From positions 124,001 through 188,000 of the forward strand of contig NZ_FOIC01000003.1 of assembly GCF_900111485.1 (NCBI RefSeq): a DNA stretch of 64,000 bases. The letters are read 5' to 3'. Made by a program: the position numbers and the translations under genes. This document shows, piece by piece, positions 33,737-43,102 of the stretch. Numbering within the stretch: the stretch's first letter is position 1; each line of letters begins with the position of its first letter. Below the pieces are notes generated by a model. It saw only the letters and a list, made by a program, of their open reading frames with translations, ran no database searches and was not told the origin of the DNA. This DNA is from Natrinema hispanicum (GTDB lineage: Archaea > Halobacteriota > Halobacteria > Halobacteriales > Natrialbaceae).

Positions 33737-34447
33737 ATGCAATTCCGAAACGCCGCAGTTGTCGCCGTTGCACTGCTTGTGGCCCTCTCCGGGTGTAGTG
33801 CCCTCGGAGGTACCCCAGCCGGTGAACCGGCAAACGAGACCGACACGAAGTCAGTGACCGACCCAGTCACAAACGGAACCGCCGATGCGAACACCACTTC
33901 GACTGTCGAACCGAACGGAACCGAGGACGATACGAGCACGGATCGTAGCGATGACACCGCCGATGCAGCATGGTATCCGCCCGAAGAGCCGAATCGGCCG
34001 CTGGAAGACAAACGCGAGGACCGAATCGAGTCCGTCACGTTCGTCGACAAAGTGCCCGCCGAAAGCGGTGACGGATACTCGAACTTCAACCTCGAGGTCG
34101 TCGCCAACACCAGCATGGAAGACGTTGATCCGGCTGAACACGGCGACCTAGAGGGCGAGCCGTACTTCTTCGTCAAGATCAACGAAGGCGAGGACAACCG
34201 GAAGATTATCGAACGAACGGACGAGGTCAGGATGGACGAAAACGGGACGTTCCACATCGACGTTCGACCGGCAGGGATCGAAGAATTCGGCGCTGGCTCG
34301 CTGACCGTCGAGGTCTTCCTGATGGACGAAGACAAAGATTGGGATGATATCTACGACGCGGTCGGTACCGAGATTCAATACACCCCGGACACGGACGCTA
34401 ACGGCTCGAGTTCGACCGCCTCCGACTCGGAATCGGCCGAGAACTAA
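33737..34447 (+). CDS. secreted lipoprotein, disordered linker plus beta domain
   Basis: A 236-residue protein. The signal ends in a lipobox (ALLVALSGCSALGG), so Cys would be lipid-modified and the protein held outside the cell. A Thr/Asn/Asp-rich linker of about 60 residues with several N-x-T/S sites follows, then a beta-rich domain (SNFNLEVVANTSMEDVDPAE, FHIDVRPAGIEEF, LTVEVFLMDEDKDWDD). The domain looks like a small immunoglobulin-like fold. I do not recognise it. It converges with the membrane regulator downstream. Confidence 0.75.
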   Translation: MQFRNAAVVAVALLVALSGCSALGGTPAGEPANETDTKSVTDPVTNGTADANTTSTVEPNGTEDDTSTDRSDDTADAAWYPPEEPNRPLEDKREDRIESVTFVDKVPAESGDGYSNFNLEVVANTSMEDVDPAEHGDLEGEPYFFVKINEGEDNRKIIERTDEVRMDENGTFHIDVRPAGIEEFGAGSLTVEVFLMDEDKDWDDIYDAVGTEIQYTPDTDANGSSSTASDSESAEN

Positions 34448-34483: not shown

Positions 34484-35854
34484 TCAGTCGAAATTAGTCA
34501 GATCGACGCCCGGCAACGTGATGAGGTTCTCCCGCCCGATGCGGAGTTTCTCGATCTCGTCGTCGTCGTCCATCTTCGATAGCAACTGCGAGACCTTGGC
34601 GTTCGACCAGCCGGTCTCCGAGACGATCGACGCCTGTTTCATTCGGCCGCCGTTTTGTTGGAGGAGACGGAGGACACGCTCCTCGTCGCTTAACAGCTCG
34701 GGGTCGACATCCTGATGGGTGGATTCCTCGAACTCGAGACTGGTTCCGCGACCACGGTCAGCATCGTTCTCTCCTGTGACGGCCCCGTCAGCTGGCTCTG
34801 AGCCGGCTAAGGAGTCCCCAGATTCGGATCCGGACTCGGACCTGCTGGCGGTCTCCGCCGCTCGAGCAGCGTGCTCGTCGGTATCGCGGTCGCCGAATCC
34901 GAGCCGTTCGTGCAACGGCAGTCGATCGATCGGGATCGGAAGCTCGGTCCTGCCGTCACGTTTCGCCAACAGGTAGCCACCGGTTCCGATGGTAGCGATA
35001 AGCACGAGGACACCCCCGATCAGCCAGCCAGACATCGACGACGGAAGGGTTCCGGTCCGAACGAACACGATCTCGAGTTCGTCGGCGGTAAACTCGTAGG
35101 GACCATCCCAGGTGAGCGATGTCGGCGTCTCGAGGGCGTATTGAGGTGGTGTTTCAATGACGAGACGCTGTCCTTCGGTCAGTCCCATCCACGTTCCATC
35201 ATCCGTCTGAAACGCATCACCGAAGTGGATTCGATCACCGTCGACGGTCGCAAAGTTAGTCCAGGTAAACGAATATGAGATGACTCCGAGCCGAGCGTTC
35301 TCGGTGGTGGGATTCGATTCGTCGCTGCCGTCACCGTCGGCCGATGGCTCGGTGATTCGCGGTTCGTCCCACTGGGCGTCTTTGATCGACATCTCGCGAC
35401 CGGTTTCCTGTTGAGCGATCTGACGGAAACGTTCGAACTGCTCGGGTGTGAGACCAACAATTCGCTCGCCGGCCGTGACCTGGTCGGCGTACGCTCGAAA
35501 CGACTCAACGTCGCTCTCGTTCGTCAGGAGAAACCGACTTTCGATTGTCCATCGAACGTCCCCATTATCGCGAACGGTGAGCCGAATGACCTGCTTTGGC
35601 GTCGCTTCCGGAGTCGAACTAGTCGACTGCACTGCAGTGGGAACCGATACTGACTGTTCGACTGACCACGCGTGAGAATCACTCGAAAGCGGGGACGTGA
35701 CATGATCCAGTGATACACGGGGCCGATCGGGATCTGCAGCCGTCTGTTCGGGCGCGGGGGAAGCGGCTGCACCCGGTATAGCGACCACCGTCCCAAGGAA
35801 AGACGCCACCAGGAGGGCTGAGAGGGCAACTGTGATGGCGGTGGATACCCGCAT
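34484..35854 (-). CDS. membrane-anchored winged-helix transcription regulator
   Basis: A 456-residue protein. Signal or first membrane helix at about residues 5-30, an outside domain about 40-272 (IRLTVRDNGDVRWTIESRFL ... WTNFATVDGDRIHFGDAF), a second membrane helix at 275-297 (SGWLIGGVLVLIATIGTGGY), an acidic cytoplasmic linker, and a C-terminal winged helix at about 387-449 (LLSDEERVLRLLQQNGGRMK, then VSETGWSNAKVSQLLSKM). This resembles haloarchaeal DUF7345/DUF7343 proteins. The order implies sensing outside and DNA binding inside in one chain. It is divergent from a secreted protein gene, and an inverted repeat lies at its own promoter. Confidence 0.85.
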   Translation of the reverse strand: MRVSTAITVALSALLVASFLGTVVAIPGAAASPAPEQTAADPDRPRVSLDHVTSPLSSDSHAWSVEQSVSVPTAVQSTSSTPEATPKQVIRLTVRDNGDVRWTIESRFLLTNESDVESFRAYADQVTAGERIVGLTPEQFERFRQIAQQETGREMSIKDAQWDEPRITEPSADGDGSDESNPTTENARLGVISYSFTWTNFATVDGDRIHFGDAFQTDDGTWMGLTEGQRLVIETPPQYALETPTSLTWDGPYEFTADELEIVFVRTGTLPSSMSGWLIGGVLVLIATIGTGGYLLAKRDGRTELPIPIDRLPLHERLGFGDRDTDEHAARAAETASRSESGSESGDSLAGSEPADGAVTGENDADRGRGTSLEFEESTHQDVDPELLSDEERVLRLLQQNGGRMKQASIVSETGWSNAKVSQLLSKMDDDDEIEKLRIGRENLITLPGVDLTNFD

Positions 35855-35870
35855 GCGTATCAACGGGTGG

Positions 35871-35884
35871 TTTCCCGGGGGAAA
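35871..35884. promoter_or_regulatory. inverted repeat over the membrane-regulator promoter
   Basis: TTTCCC-GG-GGGAAA lies 17-30 bp upstream of the regulator ATG at 35854. The minus-strand TATA-like TGTTTTTTCC (about 35882-35891) begins inside it. Its position suggests a self-control site. Confidence 0.4.
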
Positions 35885-36055
35885 AAACACTTTCCATCGA
35901 AAAATAAAGCGTTACCAGCGGAAGCGAAGCGGCTCGAGGGCGGAGAGCGCTTCTAATTCAGTGTCAATACATGATTAGGGCACGGTCATTTCTCATCCTC
36001 GTGGGTCAATAGCAGTGCGACCAGTTTTTGTATCAGGAGAGGTTACGATTCGACG

Positions 36056-37285
36056 ATGAACCGCTCGATTCCGCCCCTCCTCGCATTACTTCTCGTCTCA
36101 TCCCTGACTGTCGTCCCAGGGATGGCGACATCCGGATCTTCAGCAGGCGCACCCGCAACGATGTCGGTTCAGCATGAGGTAGCGGCTATCGACCCGGCTG
36201 ACTCCGGGCTCCAGCCAGTGTCGAATACGACGAACCGGCTCTCGCTCGGGGGTGCAGCCAGAAGCGAGTACGCCGAGTACGGCCCTGACCTTGGTGTCGC
36301 GCTCGCGAGCACGGACGACGAGCTTCGGATCGATCATACCCAGTACGTCACGCTCGATCGACAGTTCACCGATGCAACCACTGCAGAACGGCGTGCCTTA
36401 CTCCAAACCACATACGACCGGCTGAAAGACCGCTCGAATACCCTCAGGGAACGCGAAAAGCAGGCGGTGAGAGCACACGCTGCTGGGGACCTCTCGAGTA
36501 GACAATTGCTGAAAACGTTGCTCCGAAATTATCAGGAGGCAGCAGCCCTCTCCGAAGCGTTCGATACACTCGAAGAGCGGTCGGATCGTGTTTCTGGGAG
36601 TTCACTATCGGTCGCAGACCAGCAAGACAAACTCAAGATGCATCGCACCCAAATCCGCGACCAGCTTTGGTCGAGCGCGTATGGAAACGGCGCAATCGCG
36701 TATATCTCCGTCGAGACATCCGAGAGTGGATACGTTCTCGAGACGCTCGACGAGGACTACCTCCGCGAAGCGACCCGATTCGACAACCGGGATACATCGA
36801 CGTCGACCCAGTTCGCCAATCTCCCGGAGGCATACGGGCACAGCGATGACCTCTATCCCTGGGCGTACGACACGGGGCAGTCACCGTCGGTGAGCGAATA
36901 CACGACGGCACAGCTGTACCAGATCGACATCTCCCACGAGCAAGGTGAGCTCAAAGCGTACCTTGATGGCGGCACAGGGGATATTCATCGTGAGCTACAG
37001 ACACTGGTCCCAGAGATATTGCCAACGGTTCGTCAGCAAGAGTGGCAGAAAGACGGGCTCAAGGTCGTCGTCGACAAGACGGCCGCAAACGGCCCACAGA
37101 AAGTGACTGTCACCAACCGAGAGAGCGGCGAGCCAGTTACAGCAACGATCACGATCAGCGGCTTCAACGTCGGCGAGACGAACGCGGATGGCAGCCTCTG
37201 GTATGTCCCACCCAGTGGCGGATACGAACTCACGATAGAGCGGCCGACGGGATCCAACGTCACCGTCCCAGTTTCGAATAGCTAG
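36056..37285 (+). CDS. secreted haloarchaeal protein (DUF7096-like)
   Basis: A 409-residue protein with a Sec-type signal (MNRSIPPLLALLLVSSLTVV). A helical section with coiled-coil character follows (about residues 100-190: ALLQTTYDRLKDRSNTLRER, EAFDTLEERSDRV), then a mixed region, and a C-terminal beta-domain (VTVTNRESGEPVTATITISG, GSLWYVPPSGGYELTIERP), which resembles a carboxypeptidase-regulatory/CNA-B type fold. There is no C-terminal anchor. A TATA-like TTTTTGTAT lies about 28 bp upstream. It is divergent from the membrane regulator and 70 bp before a pilin-like gene. Confidence 0.78.
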   Translation: MNRSIPPLLALLLVSSLTVVPGMATSGSSAGAPATMSVQHEVAAIDPADSGLQPVSNTTNRLSLGGAARSEYAEYGPDLGVALASTDDELRIDHTQYVTLDRQFTDATTAERRALLQTTYDRLKDRSNTLREREKQAVRAHAAGDLSSRQLLKTLLRNYQEAAALSEAFDTLEERSDRVSGSSLSVADQQDKLKMHRTQIRDQLWSSAYGNGAIAYISVETSESGYVLETLDEDYLREATRFDNRDTSTSTQFANLPEAYGHSDDLYPWAYDTGQSPSVSEYTTAQLYQIDISHEQGELKAYLDGGTGDIHRELQTLVPEILPTVRQQEWQKDGLKVVVDKTAANGPQKVTVTNRESGEPVTATITISGFNVGETNADGSLWYVPPSGGYELTIERPTGSNVTVPVSNS

Positions 37286-37322
37286 TGGTGCCGGCCAGCG
37301 CCCGGTCGACGGGCAAGCTGAC

Positions 37323-37330
37323 CTTTATAC
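37323..37330 (+). promoter_or_regulatory. TATA box of the pilin-like gene
   Basis: CTTTATAC lies about 28 bp before the ATG at 37356, so the pilin-like gene can be expressed on its own. Confidence 0.6.
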
Positions 37331-37355
37331 GGTAATACGCGGCCAGACGGTCGTG

Positions 37356-37853
37356 ATGGCGAGCGAAGAGGCAAGCACGATCGCCGATAGCAGGTCGCGC
37401 GGTATCAGCCAGAGTCTTGGTGTCATCTTGCTGCTAGCGCTGACCGTCTGTCTGGCATCGATCGTCGCCGTTGGTGCTGGTGCGTGGACGCTCGAGCCAG
37501 CCGGCCCAACCGCGACGTTCGAGCTCTCGGCTGACGGCGACAGCGCCGCGATCGTGATCGAACACCTCGCAGGAGATGACATCGACGTCGAGACGCTGTC
37601 GGTGACGATCGCAATCAACGGCACGGAGTTGGCCGCACAACCGCCGGTTCCGTTCGTCGGCGCGCGCGGGTTCGATGGCGCGCCCGACGGCCCGTTCAAT
37701 GCGAAAAGCGATTCGACGTGGACAGCAGGAGAACGTGCCGGCGTGTCGATCGCGGGAACGAACAGGCCGACGCTTACAGCAGGCGATTCGGTCACCGTCA
37801 CGCTCGCCGTCGACGATCGACAGGTGGCGACACTCGAGACGACGGCGAGCTAA
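37356..37853 (+). CDS. archaeal type IV pilin-like protein
   Basis: A 165-residue protein. The N-terminus IADSRSRGISQSLGVILLLA then LTVCLASIVAVGAG has the class III signal layout: charged leader, cleavage expected after Arg-Gly or nearby, and a hydrophobic helix directly behind. A beta-rich exported domain follows (AIVIEHLAGDDIDVETLSVT, VTVTLAVDDRQVATLE), as in haloarchaeal pilins of the DUF1628/PilA kind. It would be processed by PibD. It has its own TATA box but sits next to the secreted DUF7096-like gene. Confidence 0.78.
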   Translation: MASEEASTIADSRSRGISQSLGVILLLALTVCLASIVAVGAGAWTLEPAGPTATFELSADGDSAAIVIEHLAGDDIDVETLSVTIAINGTELAAQPPVPFVGARGFDGAPDGPFNAKSDSTWTAGERAGVSIAGTNRPTLTAGDSVTVTLAVDDRQVATLETTAS

Positions 37854-37857
37854 GCCG

Positions 37858-38481
37858 CTATTCGGGTGCGCGGCCGATCGTCGTGATCGCGACGTCAGGT
37901 TCGTACGACGGGCCCATAAAGGCGTGTTTCACGTCCTCGAAGCCGGCGGTCTTGAACATCTGATCGGCCTCGTACTCGTCATAGAAGAGCATAATCGAGT
38001 CGGCAAGCAGTTGGCTGATGACGTTATCGGGATAGTTCGGGCCGACGACGAGCACCTGCCCACCGGGTTTGAGGACGCGGCGGAATTCCCGGAGCGCAAG
38101 GATCGGGTTCGGCCAGTACTCGATCGAGCCCGAGGACCAGACGACATCGAACGTGTCGGTCGCAAACGGGAGTCGTTCGGCGTCACCACGGTGGAAGTGC
38201 ACCGGCGGCGCGTGTTTGCCGAACTTCTCGTAGGCCTGTGCGAGCTGGTGTTCGCTCTGGTCGAGCGCGTAGACCTCGTCGACGTGCTCGAGCAGCCCCT
38301 CGGTCGCGAAGCCGGTCCCACAGCCGACGTCGAGGACGGTCATTTCCTCCTCGATATCGAGCAGGGAGAGGGCATCGTCGCGCATCTCCTCGGTCCAGAT
38401 GAAGGGGTTCACCTGATCGTAGACCCGCGAGAGGTACTTATAAAACAGTCGGGCACGGGCCTTGTTCTCGAGAAGTCCCAT
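37858..38481 (-). CDS. class I SAM-dependent methyltransferase (quinone-type)
   Basis: A 207-residue methyltransferase. SAM-binding motif I is VLDVGCGTGFATEGLL, motif II region is DAERLPFATDTFDVVWSSGS, and motif III is LKPGGQVLVVGPN. The N-terminus NKARARLFYKYLSRVYDQVN and C-terminus resemble the plastid/cyanobacterial MPBQ methyltransferase group, so methylation of a prenylated quinone is a fair guess. The ATG at 38481 (MGLLENK) is preferred over 38502. It is divergent from the ATP synthase operon. Confidence 0.87.
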   Translation of the reverse strand: MGLLENKARARLFYKYLSRVYDQVNPFIWTEEMRDDALSLLDIEEEMTVLDVGCGTGFATEGLLEHVDEVYALDQSEHQLAQAYEKFGKHAPPVHFHRGDAERLPFATDTFDVVWSSGSIEYWPNPILALREFRRVLKPGGQVLVVGPNYPDNVISQLLADSIMLFYDEYEADQMFKTAGFEDVKHAFMGPSYEPDVAITTIGRAPE

Positions 38482-38638: not shown

Positions 38639-38971
38639 ATGCCGAGGCCAGAGGTTCTCGAACGAATTCAGTCGGCCGAAGACGAGGCCGACGAGATCGT
38701 CGCACTGGCAGAAAACGACCGCGACGAGCGAATAGCCGAGGCCCGGAAACGTGCCGAGGAAATTCGCACAGAAGCGGAACAGGAGGCGCAGGAGCTCAAA
38801 GAGCGCCGCCTGGAGGAGGCTCGCGAAGAGATCGATGCAGAATGCGAGCAGGTCCTCGAAGAAGGCGAACAGGAGCGCGCGGCACTCGCCGAGCGCGCCC
38901 GAAACCGGGTCGACGAAGTGACCGACCACGTCGTCGAACTGTTCCAGGAGGACGTCCATGCTCAGACCTGA
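38639..38971 (+). CDS. atpH: A-type ATP synthase subunit H
   Basis: A 110-residue, almost wholly helical and highly charged protein (ERIAEARKRAEEIRTEAEQE and onward), the peripheral-stalk subunit that pairs with subunit E. First gene of the operon; CATATAC (about 38601-38607) about 35 bp upstream may be the promoter TATA. It overlaps atpI by 14 nt. Confidence 0.9.
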   Translation: MPRPEVLERIQSAEDEADEIVALAENDRDERIAEARKRAEEIRTEAEQEAQELKERRLEEAREEIDAECEQVLEEGEQERAALAERARNRVDEVTDHVVELFQEDVHAQT

Positions 38972-41186
38972 ACGGATGAGCAAGGTCTCGGTGACCGGTT
39001 CCCGGGGCGTTATGCCCACGGTCATCGAGACGATCCACGGACTGAACCTGGTACATCTCTCGGACTACGACGGCTCATGGGAGGGGTTCGACAACGGTAA
39101 TCCCATCGCCGGTGCCGATCAGGCATCCGAGAAGCTGGTGACCGTCCGCGCCCTTCAGAGCACCCTGGACGTGTCGGCCGACGACGCCGAACCGGGGAGC
39201 ATCGACGAGGGCTGGGAAGCGCAACTCGAGGAGATCCGCACGCGGGTCAACGAACTCGACGATCGCCGCGGCGAGATCACCAACGAACTGCGGCAGGTCG
39301 ACGAGAAGATCGACCGTGTCGCGCCCTTTGCCGAACTGGGCATCGACCTCGACTTGCTGTCGGGGTACGAATCGGTCGATGTCGTCGTCGTTGAAGGCAA
39401 CGTCGACGCAATCGACGACGCCGTCGGCGCGTCCGACGAGATTCGGGCCTTCGAGACGTTCACCGGTGGTGACGTCGTGGCGGTTGTCGCCGCACCCACC
39501 GAAGACGCCGGTGAGGCTCCGATCGACGACGCGCTCGTCGGCGTCGACGTCACCCGCCACGAGGTTCCCGAGACCGAACAGAGCCCCGAGGCGTACGTCG
39601 CAGAGCTCGAGGACGAAAAGCAGTCCCTCGAGTCGCGACGTGACGAGATCGACACGGAGCTCGAGGAGATCAAGCAAGCGGAAGCCGACTTCCTCCTTCG
39701 AGTCGAAGAACACCTCACGATGGAGGTTCAGCAGGCGGAAGCGCCGCTACAGTTCGCGACGACAGATCGCGCGTTCGTCTCGGAAGGCTGGATCCCGACC
39801 GGCGACTACGACCGACTCGTCGCTGCGTTGAACGACGCGGTCGGCGACAGCGTCGAGATCGAAGAACTCGAGCGGGCGGATTACGACCGCCACGGCGCAC
39901 ACGCCCACACTGAAACGGATCTGGAGGGCACGCAGCCGGCGGCCGACGAAGACGAATCGCCCGCCGACGCGGACGAGCAGCAGCAGAAGGCAGTTACCGA
40001 CGGCGGATCGGCGGTCACGATGGGCGACGAGCCGCCGACGGTACAGGACAATCCGGGTCCAGCGAAGCCGTTCGAAGTGCTGGTGCAGGCGGTCAGCATG
40101 CCGAAATACAGCGAGTTCGATCCGACGATCTTCCTGTTCCTGACGTTCCCGTTGTTCTTCGGGTTCATGATCGGTGACGCCGGCTACGGCATCATCTACA
40201 TGGCCATCGGAGGCTACATGGTAACGCAGGTCGACAACGACGCGATCTCCAGTCTCGGCGGTGTCGCCGTCTGGGCTGGTCTATTCACGACCATCTTCGG
40301 GTTCGTGTACGGCGAAATCTTCGGCCTGCACGTCCTGGGCGCAGTCGTCTGGAGCAACGTCGAACTGCTCCCGCTGAACAAGGGACTCGAGCCGGCAGCC
40401 GCCGACTTCGCGCTTGGCTGGATGGTCATTAGCGTGCTGGCCGGGATTCTCCACCTCAACATTGGATACATCCTGGACTTCTTCGAGAACCTTAGCCACG
40501 GCTTCAAGGATGCCCTGTTCCACAGCGGATCGTGGATCCTGATGCTCAACGGCATCTGGATCTGGATCTTCTCGACCCAGGGCGAGGCCGCGAAGCCGGA
40601 CTTCCTGTTCGAGACGTTCGCAAGCGGCGGACCGTTCCCGATCGGCTTCACTGGGTTCTCCGGACTGGGACTGTTCACCGTCCCAGGACTCGGGTTCGAG
40701 CTGACAGCACCGCTGCTCATGTTCCTGATTGGGCTCGTGATGCTGATCGTCAGCGAACCCGTCGAAGCCGTCGAAGCGCTCGACGTCGTCGTGAACGTCT
40801 TCTCGTACACCCGGATGGGCGCAGTGTTGCTCGCGAAGGCCGGTATGGCGTTCGTGGTCAACCTGCTGTTCTTCGGCGCGTACGAGGACCCCAACGGCGA
40901 GTTCCACTTCCTTCGAACGCACGAGCCGAGCTACGTCGCCGAACACTACGGCGAGGGTGCCGAGGTCGTCTTCAACGGCCTCATGCACTCGGGCACCGCA
41001 GCCCTGCTCGGCGGACTTGTGATTCTCGTACTCGGGCACGTGGTCGTGCTAGCACTTGGCGTGACAAGCGCCGGCTTACAGGCCGTTCGTCTCGAGTACG
41101 TCGAATTCTTTAACAAGTTTTATGAAGGCGGTGGGGAGAACTACGAACCGTTCGGAACCGATCGAAACCACATTGAGGACTACTAA
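38958..41186 (+). CDS. atpI: A-type ATP synthase subunit I (a)
   Basis: A 742-residue membrane subunit, homologous to V-type subunit a. The N-terminal half is a soluble stalk-binding part with coiled coils (RDEIDTELEEIKQAEADFLL). The C-terminal half has about seven or eight membrane helices, including the proton-channel region with MGAVLLAKAGMAFVVNLLFF. An acidic insertion (about residues 320-345) is a halophilic feature. It starts inside the end of atpH. Confidence 0.94.
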   Translation: MLRPERMSKVSVTGSRGVMPTVIETIHGLNLVHLSDYDGSWEGFDNGNPIAGADQASEKLVTVRALQSTLDVSADDAEPGSIDEGWEAQLEEIRTRVNELDDRRGEITNELRQVDEKIDRVAPFAELGIDLDLLSGYESVDVVVVEGNVDAIDDAVGASDEIRAFETFTGGDVVAVVAAPTEDAGEAPIDDALVGVDVTRHEVPETEQSPEAYVAELEDEKQSLESRRDEIDTELEEIKQAEADFLLRVEEHLTMEVQQAEAPLQFATTDRAFVSEGWIPTGDYDRLVAALNDAVGDSVEIEELERADYDRHGAHAHTETDLEGTQPAADEDESPADADEQQQKAVTDGGSAVTMGDEPPTVQDNPGPAKPFEVLVQAVSMPKYSEFDPTIFLFLTFPLFFGFMIGDAGYGIIYMAIGGYMVTQVDNDAISSLGGVAVWAGLFTTIFGFVYGEIFGLHVLGAVVWSNVELLPLNKGLEPAAADFALGWMVISVLAGILHLNIGYILDFFENLSHGFKDALFHSGSWILMLNGIWIWIFSTQGEAAKPDFLFETFASGGPFPIGFTGFSGLGLFTVPGLGFELTAPLLMFLIGLVMLIVSEPVEAVEALDVVVNVFSYTRMGAVLLAKAGMAFVVNLLFFGAYEDPNGEFHFLRTHEPSYVAEHYGEGAEVVFNGLMHSGTAALLGGLVILVLGHVVVLALGVTSAGLQAVRLEYVEFFNKFYEGGGENYEPFGTDRNHIEDY

Positions 41187-41188
41187 CA

Positions 41189-41434
41189 ATGAGTGAACTT
41201 GACATCGCAATGCAGGCGGCACAGGCGGCCGGACCAACTCTCGAAAACTCTGGCGCAGCGGCAATCGCTGTCGGCCTCGCGGCGCTCGCGGCGGGCTACG
41301 CCGAGCGTGGTATCGGCGCAGCGGCAGTCGGCGCAATCGCTGAAGACGACGACATGTTCGTTCCAGGTCTGATCATGACCGTCCTCCCAGAGACACTCGT
41401 GATCCTTGCCCTGGTCGTCGTCTTCATCGTGTAA
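41189..41434 (+). CDS. atpK: A-type ATP synthase subunit K (c, proteolipid)
   Basis: An 81-residue two-helix proteolipid. The ion-binding carboxylate is Glu in TVLPETLVILALVVVFIV of helix 2. The first helix has the small-residue packing pattern (GLAALAAGYAERGIGAAAVG). This is a simple one-hairpin c subunit. The N-terminus is extended (MSELDIAMQAAQAAGPTLEN). It starts 2 nt after atpI ends. Confidence 0.93.
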   Translation: MSELDIAMQAAQAAGPTLENSGAAAIAVGLAALAAGYAERGIGAAAVGAIAEDDDMFVPGLIMTVLPETLVILALVVVFIV

Positions 41435-41456
41435 AAGCCACCCCCCTTCTTCACCA

Positions 41457-42038
41457 ATGAGTTTGGACACAGTCGTCAAAGACATTCGAGAAGAGGCCAA
41501 CGCGCGTGCGGAGGACATCCGCGCCGAGGGCGAAACGCGCGCCGAGGAGATCGAATCGGCCGCCGAGTCCGACGCCGAGGAAATCCTCGCCGACGCGGAA
41601 GCGGAAGTTGAGCGCGAGATCGACCAACTCCGCGAACAGCGTCTCTCCAGTGCGAAGCTGGAGGCGAAACAGAAGCGTCTGGAGGCCCGTCGTGACGTCC
41701 TCGGAGAAGTCAACGAGGCCGTCGAGGACGAACTCGCCGCCCTCGAGGGCGACACTCGCGAGGAGCTGACCCGCGACCTGCTCGAGGCTGCACGCGACGA
41801 GTTCGACGCGGGCGACGACGTCAGCGTCTACGGTCGCAGCGACGACCAGGCACTGCTCGAGTCGATCGTCGACGAATACGACGGCTACGAGTACGCCGGC
41901 AGCGTCGACTGTCTCGGCGGCGTCGTCGTCGAGAGCGAGCAATCCCGCGTCCGAGTCAACAACACGTTCGACTCGGTTCTCGAGGACGTGTGGGAAGACA
42001 ACCTTCAGGAGATCAGCAACCGACTCTTCGAGCAATGA
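41457..42038 (+). CDS. atpE: A-type ATP synthase subunit E
   Basis: A 193-residue peripheral-stalk protein. The N-terminal half is one long charged helix (VKDIREEANARAEDIRAEGE and onward) that pairs with subunit H; the C-terminal half is a small alpha/beta head (YAGSVDCLGGVVVESEQSRV). Start is ATG 41457. It overlaps atpC by 4 nt. Confidence 0.93.
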   Translation: MSLDTVVKDIREEANARAEDIRAEGETRAEEIESAAESDAEEILADAEAEVEREIDQLREQRLSSAKLEAKQKRLEARRDVLGEVNEAVEDELAALEGDTREELTRDLLEAARDEFDAGDDVSVYGRSDDQALLESIVDEYDGYEYAGSVDCLGGVVVESEQSRVRVNNTFDSVLEDVWEDNLQEISNRLFEQ

Positions 42039-43102
42039 GCGCAGGTGCCTCAAATCCGGAATACGTGAACGCTCGCGTCCGGTCACGCCGAGCCTCGCTG
42101 TTCTCGGACGAAGACTACCGCAAGCTGATCCGGATGGGGCCGAGCGAGATCGCGCGGTTCATGGAGGAGACCGAGTACGAGCGCGAGATCAACGAGCTCG
42201 GAACGCGCTTTTCGGGCGTCGACCTGATCGAGTACGCGCTCAACCGCAATCTCGCAAAGCACTTCGAGGACATGATCGATTGGTCGCAGGGGCGACTCTA
42301 CGACCTCATCGCTCGGTACCTCCGGAAGTTCGACGTCTGGAACCTGAAGACGATCTTCCGTGGGATTTACACCGATAGCGATCCCGAAGAGATCCGCACG
42401 GACCTCATCCGCGCCGGCGAACTCGACGACCGGACGATCGATCGTCTCCTCGAGACCGACACGATCGAGGACGCGATCGAAGTGCTCTACGGCACGATGT
42501 ACTACGAGGCGCTGACCGAGGCCTTCGAGGAATACGAAGAGGCGGGCGCGCTCGTCCCCCTCGAGAACGCCTTAGACCGGGAGTTCTACGAGAACTTGCT
42601 CGAAGACCTCTCCCGTGGAGCTGGCGACGAGCCACAGGAAGGCCCAGTCGCGAACTATATCGAGTTCCTGCAGGCCGAGATCGACTTCCGGAACGCCCGG
42701 AACGCGTTTCGGCTTGCCCGCAGCGGTGCCGACCTCGACCCTGCGGCGTACTACATCGACGGTGGCGTCCTGTTCGACGAGTCCGATCTAAACCGGCTCG
42801 TCGGCGACTACGACGCGCTCGTCGATCACATCTCCGAGGACCGCCGCTACGGCGACCGCCTCTCGGAGGCGCTCGATCAGTTGCGCGATGCTGACAGCCT
42901 TATCCAGTTCGAGCACGCACTAGACGCTGCGTTACTCGAGTACTCGGATACGCTCTCGAGCATCTACCCGACCTCGGTTTCGGCCGTGTTGTCGTACATC
43001 CTCGCGAAAGAGCGCGAGGTCGAGAACATCCGTGCCATCGCACGGGGCCGTGAGGTCGGACTCGATGAAAACGAGATCGAAGAGGAATTGGTGGTGCTAT
43101 GA
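42035..43102 (+). CDS. atpC: A-type ATP synthase subunit C
   Basis: A 355-residue helical subunit, homologous to V-type subunit d, the socket between central stalk and c ring. Visible family features are NARVRSRRASLFSDEDYRKL, the middle LYDLIARYLRKFDVWNLKTI with FRGIY, and YILAKEREVENIRAIARGRE at the end. The ATG sits in the atpE stop (ATGA overlap). Confidence 0.93.
   Translation: MSAGASNPEYVNARVRSRRASLFSDEDYRKLIRMGPSEIARFMEETEYEREINELGTRFSGVDLIEYALNRNLAKHFEDMIDWSQGRLYDLIARYLRKFDVWNLKTIFRGIYTDSDPEEIRTDLIRAGELDDRTIDRLLETDTIEDAIEVLYGTMYYEALTEAFEEYEEAGALVPLENALDREFYENLLEDLSRGAGDEPQEGPVANYIEFLQAEIDFRNARNAFRLARSGADLDPAAYYIDGGVLFDESDLNRLVGDYDALVDHISEDRRYGDRLSEALDQLRDADSLIQFEHALDAALLEYSDTLSSIYPTSVSAVLSYILAKEREVENIRAIARGREVGLDENEIEEELVVL

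Follow-up and report, generated by a model that had tools for sequence, protein, structure and literature searches.

Within the 64 000-nucleotide stretch of Natrinema hispanicum DNA that was analysed (the window), a gene for a membrane-bound winged-helix regulator, here called REG, stands head-to-head with a gene for a secreted protein, SEC, and a gene for a type IV pilin-like protein, PIL, follows downstream of SEC (Table 1). On its other side REG is convergent with a lipoprotein gene, the two 3' ends facing each other. Beyond PIL, a methyltransferase gene, which is conserved and faces PIL tail-to-tail (37858-38481, minus strand), precedes an A-type ATP synthase operon (38639-43102, plus strand); synteny of this block extends widely across haloarchaea.

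Table 1. Positions of genes, protein domains and promoter elements around the REG/SEC intergenic region in the window.
Feature	Position	Strand	Basis
REG: membrane-bound winged-helix regulator	34484..35854	-	Pfam domains, structure model, hydropathy
REG external domain DUF7345, residues 92-239	35138..35581	-	Pfam E 2.9e-39; model pLDDT ~95
REG transmembrane helix, residues 272-299	34958..35041	-	Model helix; hydropathy maximum at 278
REG winged helix DUF7343, residues 387-448	34511..34696	-	Pfam E 1.3e-31
REG promoter block GATGGAAAGTGTTTT, BRE+TATA-like core, possible overlapping operator	35884..35898	-	Motif scans and promoter controls
SEC: secreted protein, DUF7096 (helical), DUF7094 and Fn3_arc	36056..37285	+	Pfam, model, hydropathy
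SEC TATA-like TTTTT, 27-31 nt before ATG	36025..36029	+	Leaderless promoter predicted
PIL: type IV pilin-like protein with a class III signal	37356..37853	+	Pilin_N; predicted cleavage after G16
Lipoprotein, lipobox LSGC	~33737..34447	+	Sub-threshold Pfam match only; lineage-specific neighbour

REG is a chain of 456 amino acids that starts with an ATG at 35854 and contains, from the N- to the C-terminus, a signal peptide, DUF7345, a transmembrane helix, a linker, and DUF7343. Both Pfam domains exceed their gathering cut-offs (134.7 bits for DUF7345 and 108.7 bits for DUF7343), and a second hydropathy peak, at residue 8, corresponds to the signal peptide. In the structure model the outer domain is confident (pLDDT ~95), the linker is of low confidence or disordered, and the winged helix is at the C-terminus. 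Pfam, hydropathy and the model therefore agree with a sequence-only reading of this DNA, which had described one chain with an outside domain, a membrane helix and a C-terminal winged helix. The winged helix matches winged helix-turn-helix folds, such as those of MarR/ArsR-type regulators (Foldseek probability 1.00), and weaker HTH_24/IclR/MarR matches accompany DUF7343 in Pfam. Its residues are near invariant in the REG alignment, including an almost invariant ETGWSNAKVSQLLS-type helix. The nearest named homologues of the window REG are those of N. hispanicum and N. limicola, at 93% identity.

SEC has 409 amino acids, with a signal peptide and no membrane helix beyond it. DUF7096 (173.6 bits), DUF7094 (106.2 bits) and Fn3_arc (92.3 bits) all exceed Pfam gathering cut-offs, and the secreted protein that had been read head-to-head with the regulator is thus confirmed. 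A possible likeness of DUF7094 to PepSY found no support from Pfam. The structure search gave no confident match to any solved fold for SEC or for DUF7345 of REG, so that a function based on fold was dropped for both and structure suggests no sensing mechanism. PIL carries Pilin_N (PF07790; E 7e-12, 46.5 bits compared with a cut-off of 25.2) and the class III signal SRSRG/ISQSLGVILLLALTV (SRSRG/ISQ), followed by a hydrophobic stretch; no pilus assembly gene of the PilB/PilC type was found among its immediate neighbours. Its earlier description as a pilin-like class III protein holds, but it lies downstream of SEC and is not itself head-to-head.

The pair is found throughout the Halobacteriales. 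SEC is present in 135 of 146 genomes (119 of the 122 of good quality); a cut-off of E <= 1e-20 finds REG, paralogues included, in 137 of the 146. By coordinates, the two genes are adjacent and divergent in 104 of the 114 genomes with both among the matches listed. Many cases beyond these had partial matches, and individual reading of further loci raised the count, in a hand tally, to at least 128 of the 135 SEC-bearing genomes. Exceptions are G063 and G129, in which the pair is split; G001 has SEC at a contig end, G057, G120 and G143 are uncertain, and the pair is probably divergent in G044. The divergent pair extends to low-GC reduced genomes (family f2). At two loci in low-GC genomes of ~1 Mb from this family (L248 and L249), the open frames of REG and SEC nearly touch or overlap, leaving almost no promoter space between them. 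Beyond the Halobacteriales, DUF7096 gave three weak matches in ~200 other Halobacteriota genomes, one of them barely above the cut-off, and among the control genomes Haloferax volcanii alone matched. This distribution is best read as that of a pair that is class-wide in haloarchaea and ancestral to the class.

Among 80 named loci a widespread gene order is REG (-), SEC (+), PIL (+), methyltransferase (-) and A-ATP synthase (+), and loci with this order span Natrinema, Halorussus, Haloarcula, Haladaptatus, and Natronomonas. PIL is downstream of SEC in most families; a strict class III-signal pattern places it there in 54 of 78 loci, with more loci found by tblastn only. In Haloarcula and its relatives no PIL was found at the locus, and there is little or no gap between SEC and the methyltransferase gene. 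The lipoprotein was matched in Natrinema/Natrialba-type relatives only and is probably outside the REG/SEC system. A lipoprotein gene does face REG, as had been claimed, but it is not in the conserved unit, and a four-gene unit that includes it was rejected. What survives of the proposed four-gene order is the REG/SEC neighbourhood, which is kept far outside close relatives, so that the test of a conserved neighbourhood did not refute the sequence-only reading.

Further REG-like proteins are encoded elsewhere in the window genome. At ~10 of 22 sampled paralogous REG loci a SEC-like gene adjoins in the same orientation, either before or after the REG-like gene, and another group is without a SEC neighbour. 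Three genomes from which the main pair is absent (G028, G127, G011) have a SEC-like gene adjoining a REG-like gene, and a second copy in G063 is also paired; in G010, where the main pair is absent too, the SEC-like protein is not encoded beside a REG-like gene. Tandem pairs at second loci therefore favour a functional pair over inherited synteny, and this repeated pairing is the best evidence that the two proteins work together. When AtpI and GGPS distances are regressed out, the distances for SEC and for the outer domain of REG retain a correlation of 0.47 compared with 0.27-0.34 for other pairs, a modest value obtained without a permutation test.

Individual loci illustrate the paralogous arrangements. 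In L237 (4674-6662; C68 of the window genome), L258, L259, and L273-L275, a gene for a SEC-like secreted protein lies in tandem with a second REG-like gene. A further REG-like group, in which no SEC-like neighbour was found, includes L236 (C65 of the window genome), L256, L257, and L264-L272. In L263 (864-6266), a 1801-residue open frame opposite the REG-like gene, possibly representing several genes, matches the SEC profile (E 1.2e-20).

Upstream of REG is a conserved promoter block with the general form GATGGAAAG-N-GTTTT, found in ~133 of 137 loci. The relaxed pattern AT(A/G)GAAA(A/G/C)N(G/A/C)(C/T)TTT gave 77 matches over the 1.44 Mb of the 80 named loci, each of them at a REG promoter, and the three loci that it missed are two truncated contigs and one variant block. 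The block or a near form occurs in 54 of 59 anonymous loci, plus two variants recognized by eye, and the strict form GATGGAAAGNGTTTT occurs once per genome in 26 of 117 genomes, always near REG. In 68 non-redundant REG promoters the ATG is 36-44 nt downstream of the block; at this spacing its TTTT is at the TATA position and its GGAAA at the BRE position of the leaderless haloarchaeal promoter consensus (PMC4983044). At the SEC promoters of the same loci, conservation is limited to a generic TATA and to an A at position -11. A redundancy filter reduced 135 REG promoters to 25 groups and 135 SEC promoters to 72, which indicates that the REG promoter is the more conserved. In the split genomes G063 and G129, the block stays with REG and SEC is elsewhere without it; control of SEC by REG through the block is therefore not general, and co-regulation of the two genes is dispensable in those genomes. 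At L144 (Halorhabdus amylolytica), REG and the block are present and no SEC was found adjoining.

Related elements are found at other promoters. Three unrelated genes, namely hisD, a PhoU-like gene and one more, likewise carry GGAAAnnnTTTT ~36 nt ahead of their start codons; a related form is found at the promoter of a pdhA-like gene, and hisD keeps GGAAACCGTTTTTC ~36 nt before its ATG in several haloarchaeal families. This BRE+TATA of hisD is strikingly conserved in L336 (C70 of the window genome), L339, L340, and L344-L373. When both promoters are anchored alike, the cores of REG and hisD carry similar amounts of information (10.3 and 9.7 bits), the former figure being biased by a redundancy filter that merges conserved REG promoters; a higher estimate of ~23 bits for the REG block is conditioned on the search pattern and hence biased as well. 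Only an extra conserved AT upstream sets the REG block apart from the hisD core. Most of the block is thus a leaderless BRE+TATA core promoter, which largely accounts for it, and it may additionally be an operator. An interpretation as a proven operator, favoured at first on the uniqueness of the strict form, was demoted given the same element at hisD and unrelated promoters. A wider REG regulon in Natrinema was also rejected, as the loose-pattern matches inspected recur at orthologous housekeeping promoters, which is expected of core promoters, and a structured RNA reading found no Rfam match.

The domain architecture, class-wide linkage, recurring pairs, and exceptionally conserved REG promoter are the basis of the model that we prefer, to which we give about an even chance: REG, a one-component regulator of the transmembrane type, has SEC as its dedicated secreted partner and PIL as an optional accessory. 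The divergent pair, usually with the pilin-like gene, would probably let the haloarchaeal cell sense its surface. DUF7345 would monitor the envelope from outside the membrane, and the winged helix at the C-terminus, tethered by ~85 residues of flexible linker, would bind DNA from the membrane. SEC, probably the dedicated partner, would act outside the cytoplasm as a ligand, co-sensor or inhibitor, and PIL would be made downstream of SEC as a surface accessory. From these observations we infer physical contact between REG and SEC, the direction of signalling, and binding of REG at its own promoter region. The sequence-only reading is thus partly supported: the membrane-bound one-component architecture and the conserved neighbourhood hold, and its proposal that SEC or PIL might be the signal or the target of REG is at most a possibility. 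REG may control SEC and PIL, but the sole conserved cis element is at the REG promoter and stays with REG where SEC has moved away.

Different explanations can be proposed for the same observations. REG could mainly regulate itself, with its winged helix acting as a repressor by binding the dyad GGAAAGCGTTTTCC, which overlies the BRE/TATA of REG, and with SEC as a neighbour that has a constitutive promoter of its own. The exclusive occurrence of the relaxed block at REG promoters in the named loci and its frequency in the anonymous ones are consistent with this, as are its persistence with REG where SEC is elsewhere, its absence from SEC promoters, and a fully symmetric core in some lineages (AAAGnnCTTT, AAAACGTTTT). 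However, the occurrence of GGAAAnnnTTTT at unrelated genes, the conservation of GGAAACCGTTTTTC at hisD and the similar core information, with just the extra AT standing out, point to a core promoter, so that self-regulation is possible only, and we regard this explanation as a plausible but rather doubtful one. An unlikely alternative is that REG switches on or off, as its direct targets, two structural proteins of the cell surface, SEC and PIL. The shared REG/SEC intergenic region of ~200 bp and the position of PIL after SEC in most families would suit such targets, and in Sulfolobus the promoters of pilin and archaellin genes are controlled by membrane regulators of the ArnR type (PMC6396743), but SEC has no conserved cis element beyond its generic TATA, split-off SEC genes are without the block, and PIL is missing from the locus in a Haloarcula group.

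Linkage of REG and SEC might also be passive synteny beside the conserved methyltransferase gene and A-type ATP synthase operon, with no functional relation between the two. Conservation of the entire block as far as that operon fits, yet REG and SEC are kept together in loci where no ATP synthase genes were found alongside (L075, L114, L128, L138) and in the low-GC reduced genomes, and paralogous pairs occur elsewhere in other arrangements, all of which make this explanation improbable.

Several known systems resemble the preferred model of a membrane-bound regulator with a secreted partner. In bacteria, ToxR/ToxS and CadC are similar to REG in architecture, with a membrane-tethered winged helix and an outer sensing domain, and ToxR has ToxS as its partner, as REG would have SEC. 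The winged helix of ToxR and CadC is N-terminal, a topology opposite to that of REG. Transmembrane transcription regulators (TTRs), the subject of a survey (PMC10269533), are single-pass proteins with a predicted membrane helix and a DNA-binding domain in one chain; REG has both a predicted transmembrane region and a predicted DNA-binding domain in one chain. It differs from the TTRs of that survey, in which a search for haloarchaeal terms found nothing, in its C-terminal winged helix, N-terminal secreted-type sensor domain, and conserved secreted partner gene. ArnR and ArnR1 of Sulfolobus acidocaldarius are, like REG, archaeal membrane-bound one-component regulators, and act on archaellin and pilus genes (PMC6396743). 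Their helix-turn-helix is N-terminal (PMC13286277), whereas REG has a C-terminal winged helix (residues 387-448); they also differ in that the text consulted describes no DUF7345 or SEC-type partner for them.

Another parallel is in Haloferax volcanii, where a transmembrane/HTH glycoprotein, HVO_0306, adjoins a secreted glycoprotein, HVO_0307 (PMC8241124). Annotation and locus numbers indicate that these are probably the REG/SEC orthologues, and that HVO_1944/HVO_1945 are probably a second, paralogous pair. HVO_0306 is an O-glycoprotein candidate and HVO_0307 an N-glycoprotein with three N-glycosites (PMC8241124), and their detection as glycoproteins fits an outward-facing REG domain. Binding of CdrS was detected upstream of HVO_1944 by ChIP-seq (PMC8406309). 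Literature searches with the domain names and Haloferax locus tags returned glycoproteomics and this one ChIP-seq mention, and no functional study.

An S-layer encloses the cells of haloarchaea, in which sensing of the envelope state is poorly known. REG is thus a class-wide winged-helix regulator of the transmembrane one-component kind with a probable dedicated secreted partner, a partnership that the genomic comparisons support. More tentatively, and somewhat against the odds, it could be an ancestral envelope-sensing circuit of the whole class, in which a co-inherited secreted glycoprotein controls the outer domain of REG, with a pilin-like accessory, feedback on its own locus, and a family of duplicated pairs. 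Retention of REG and SEC across nearly the whole class, together with the duplicated pairs, provides a short gene list for direct testing and an obvious experimental target.
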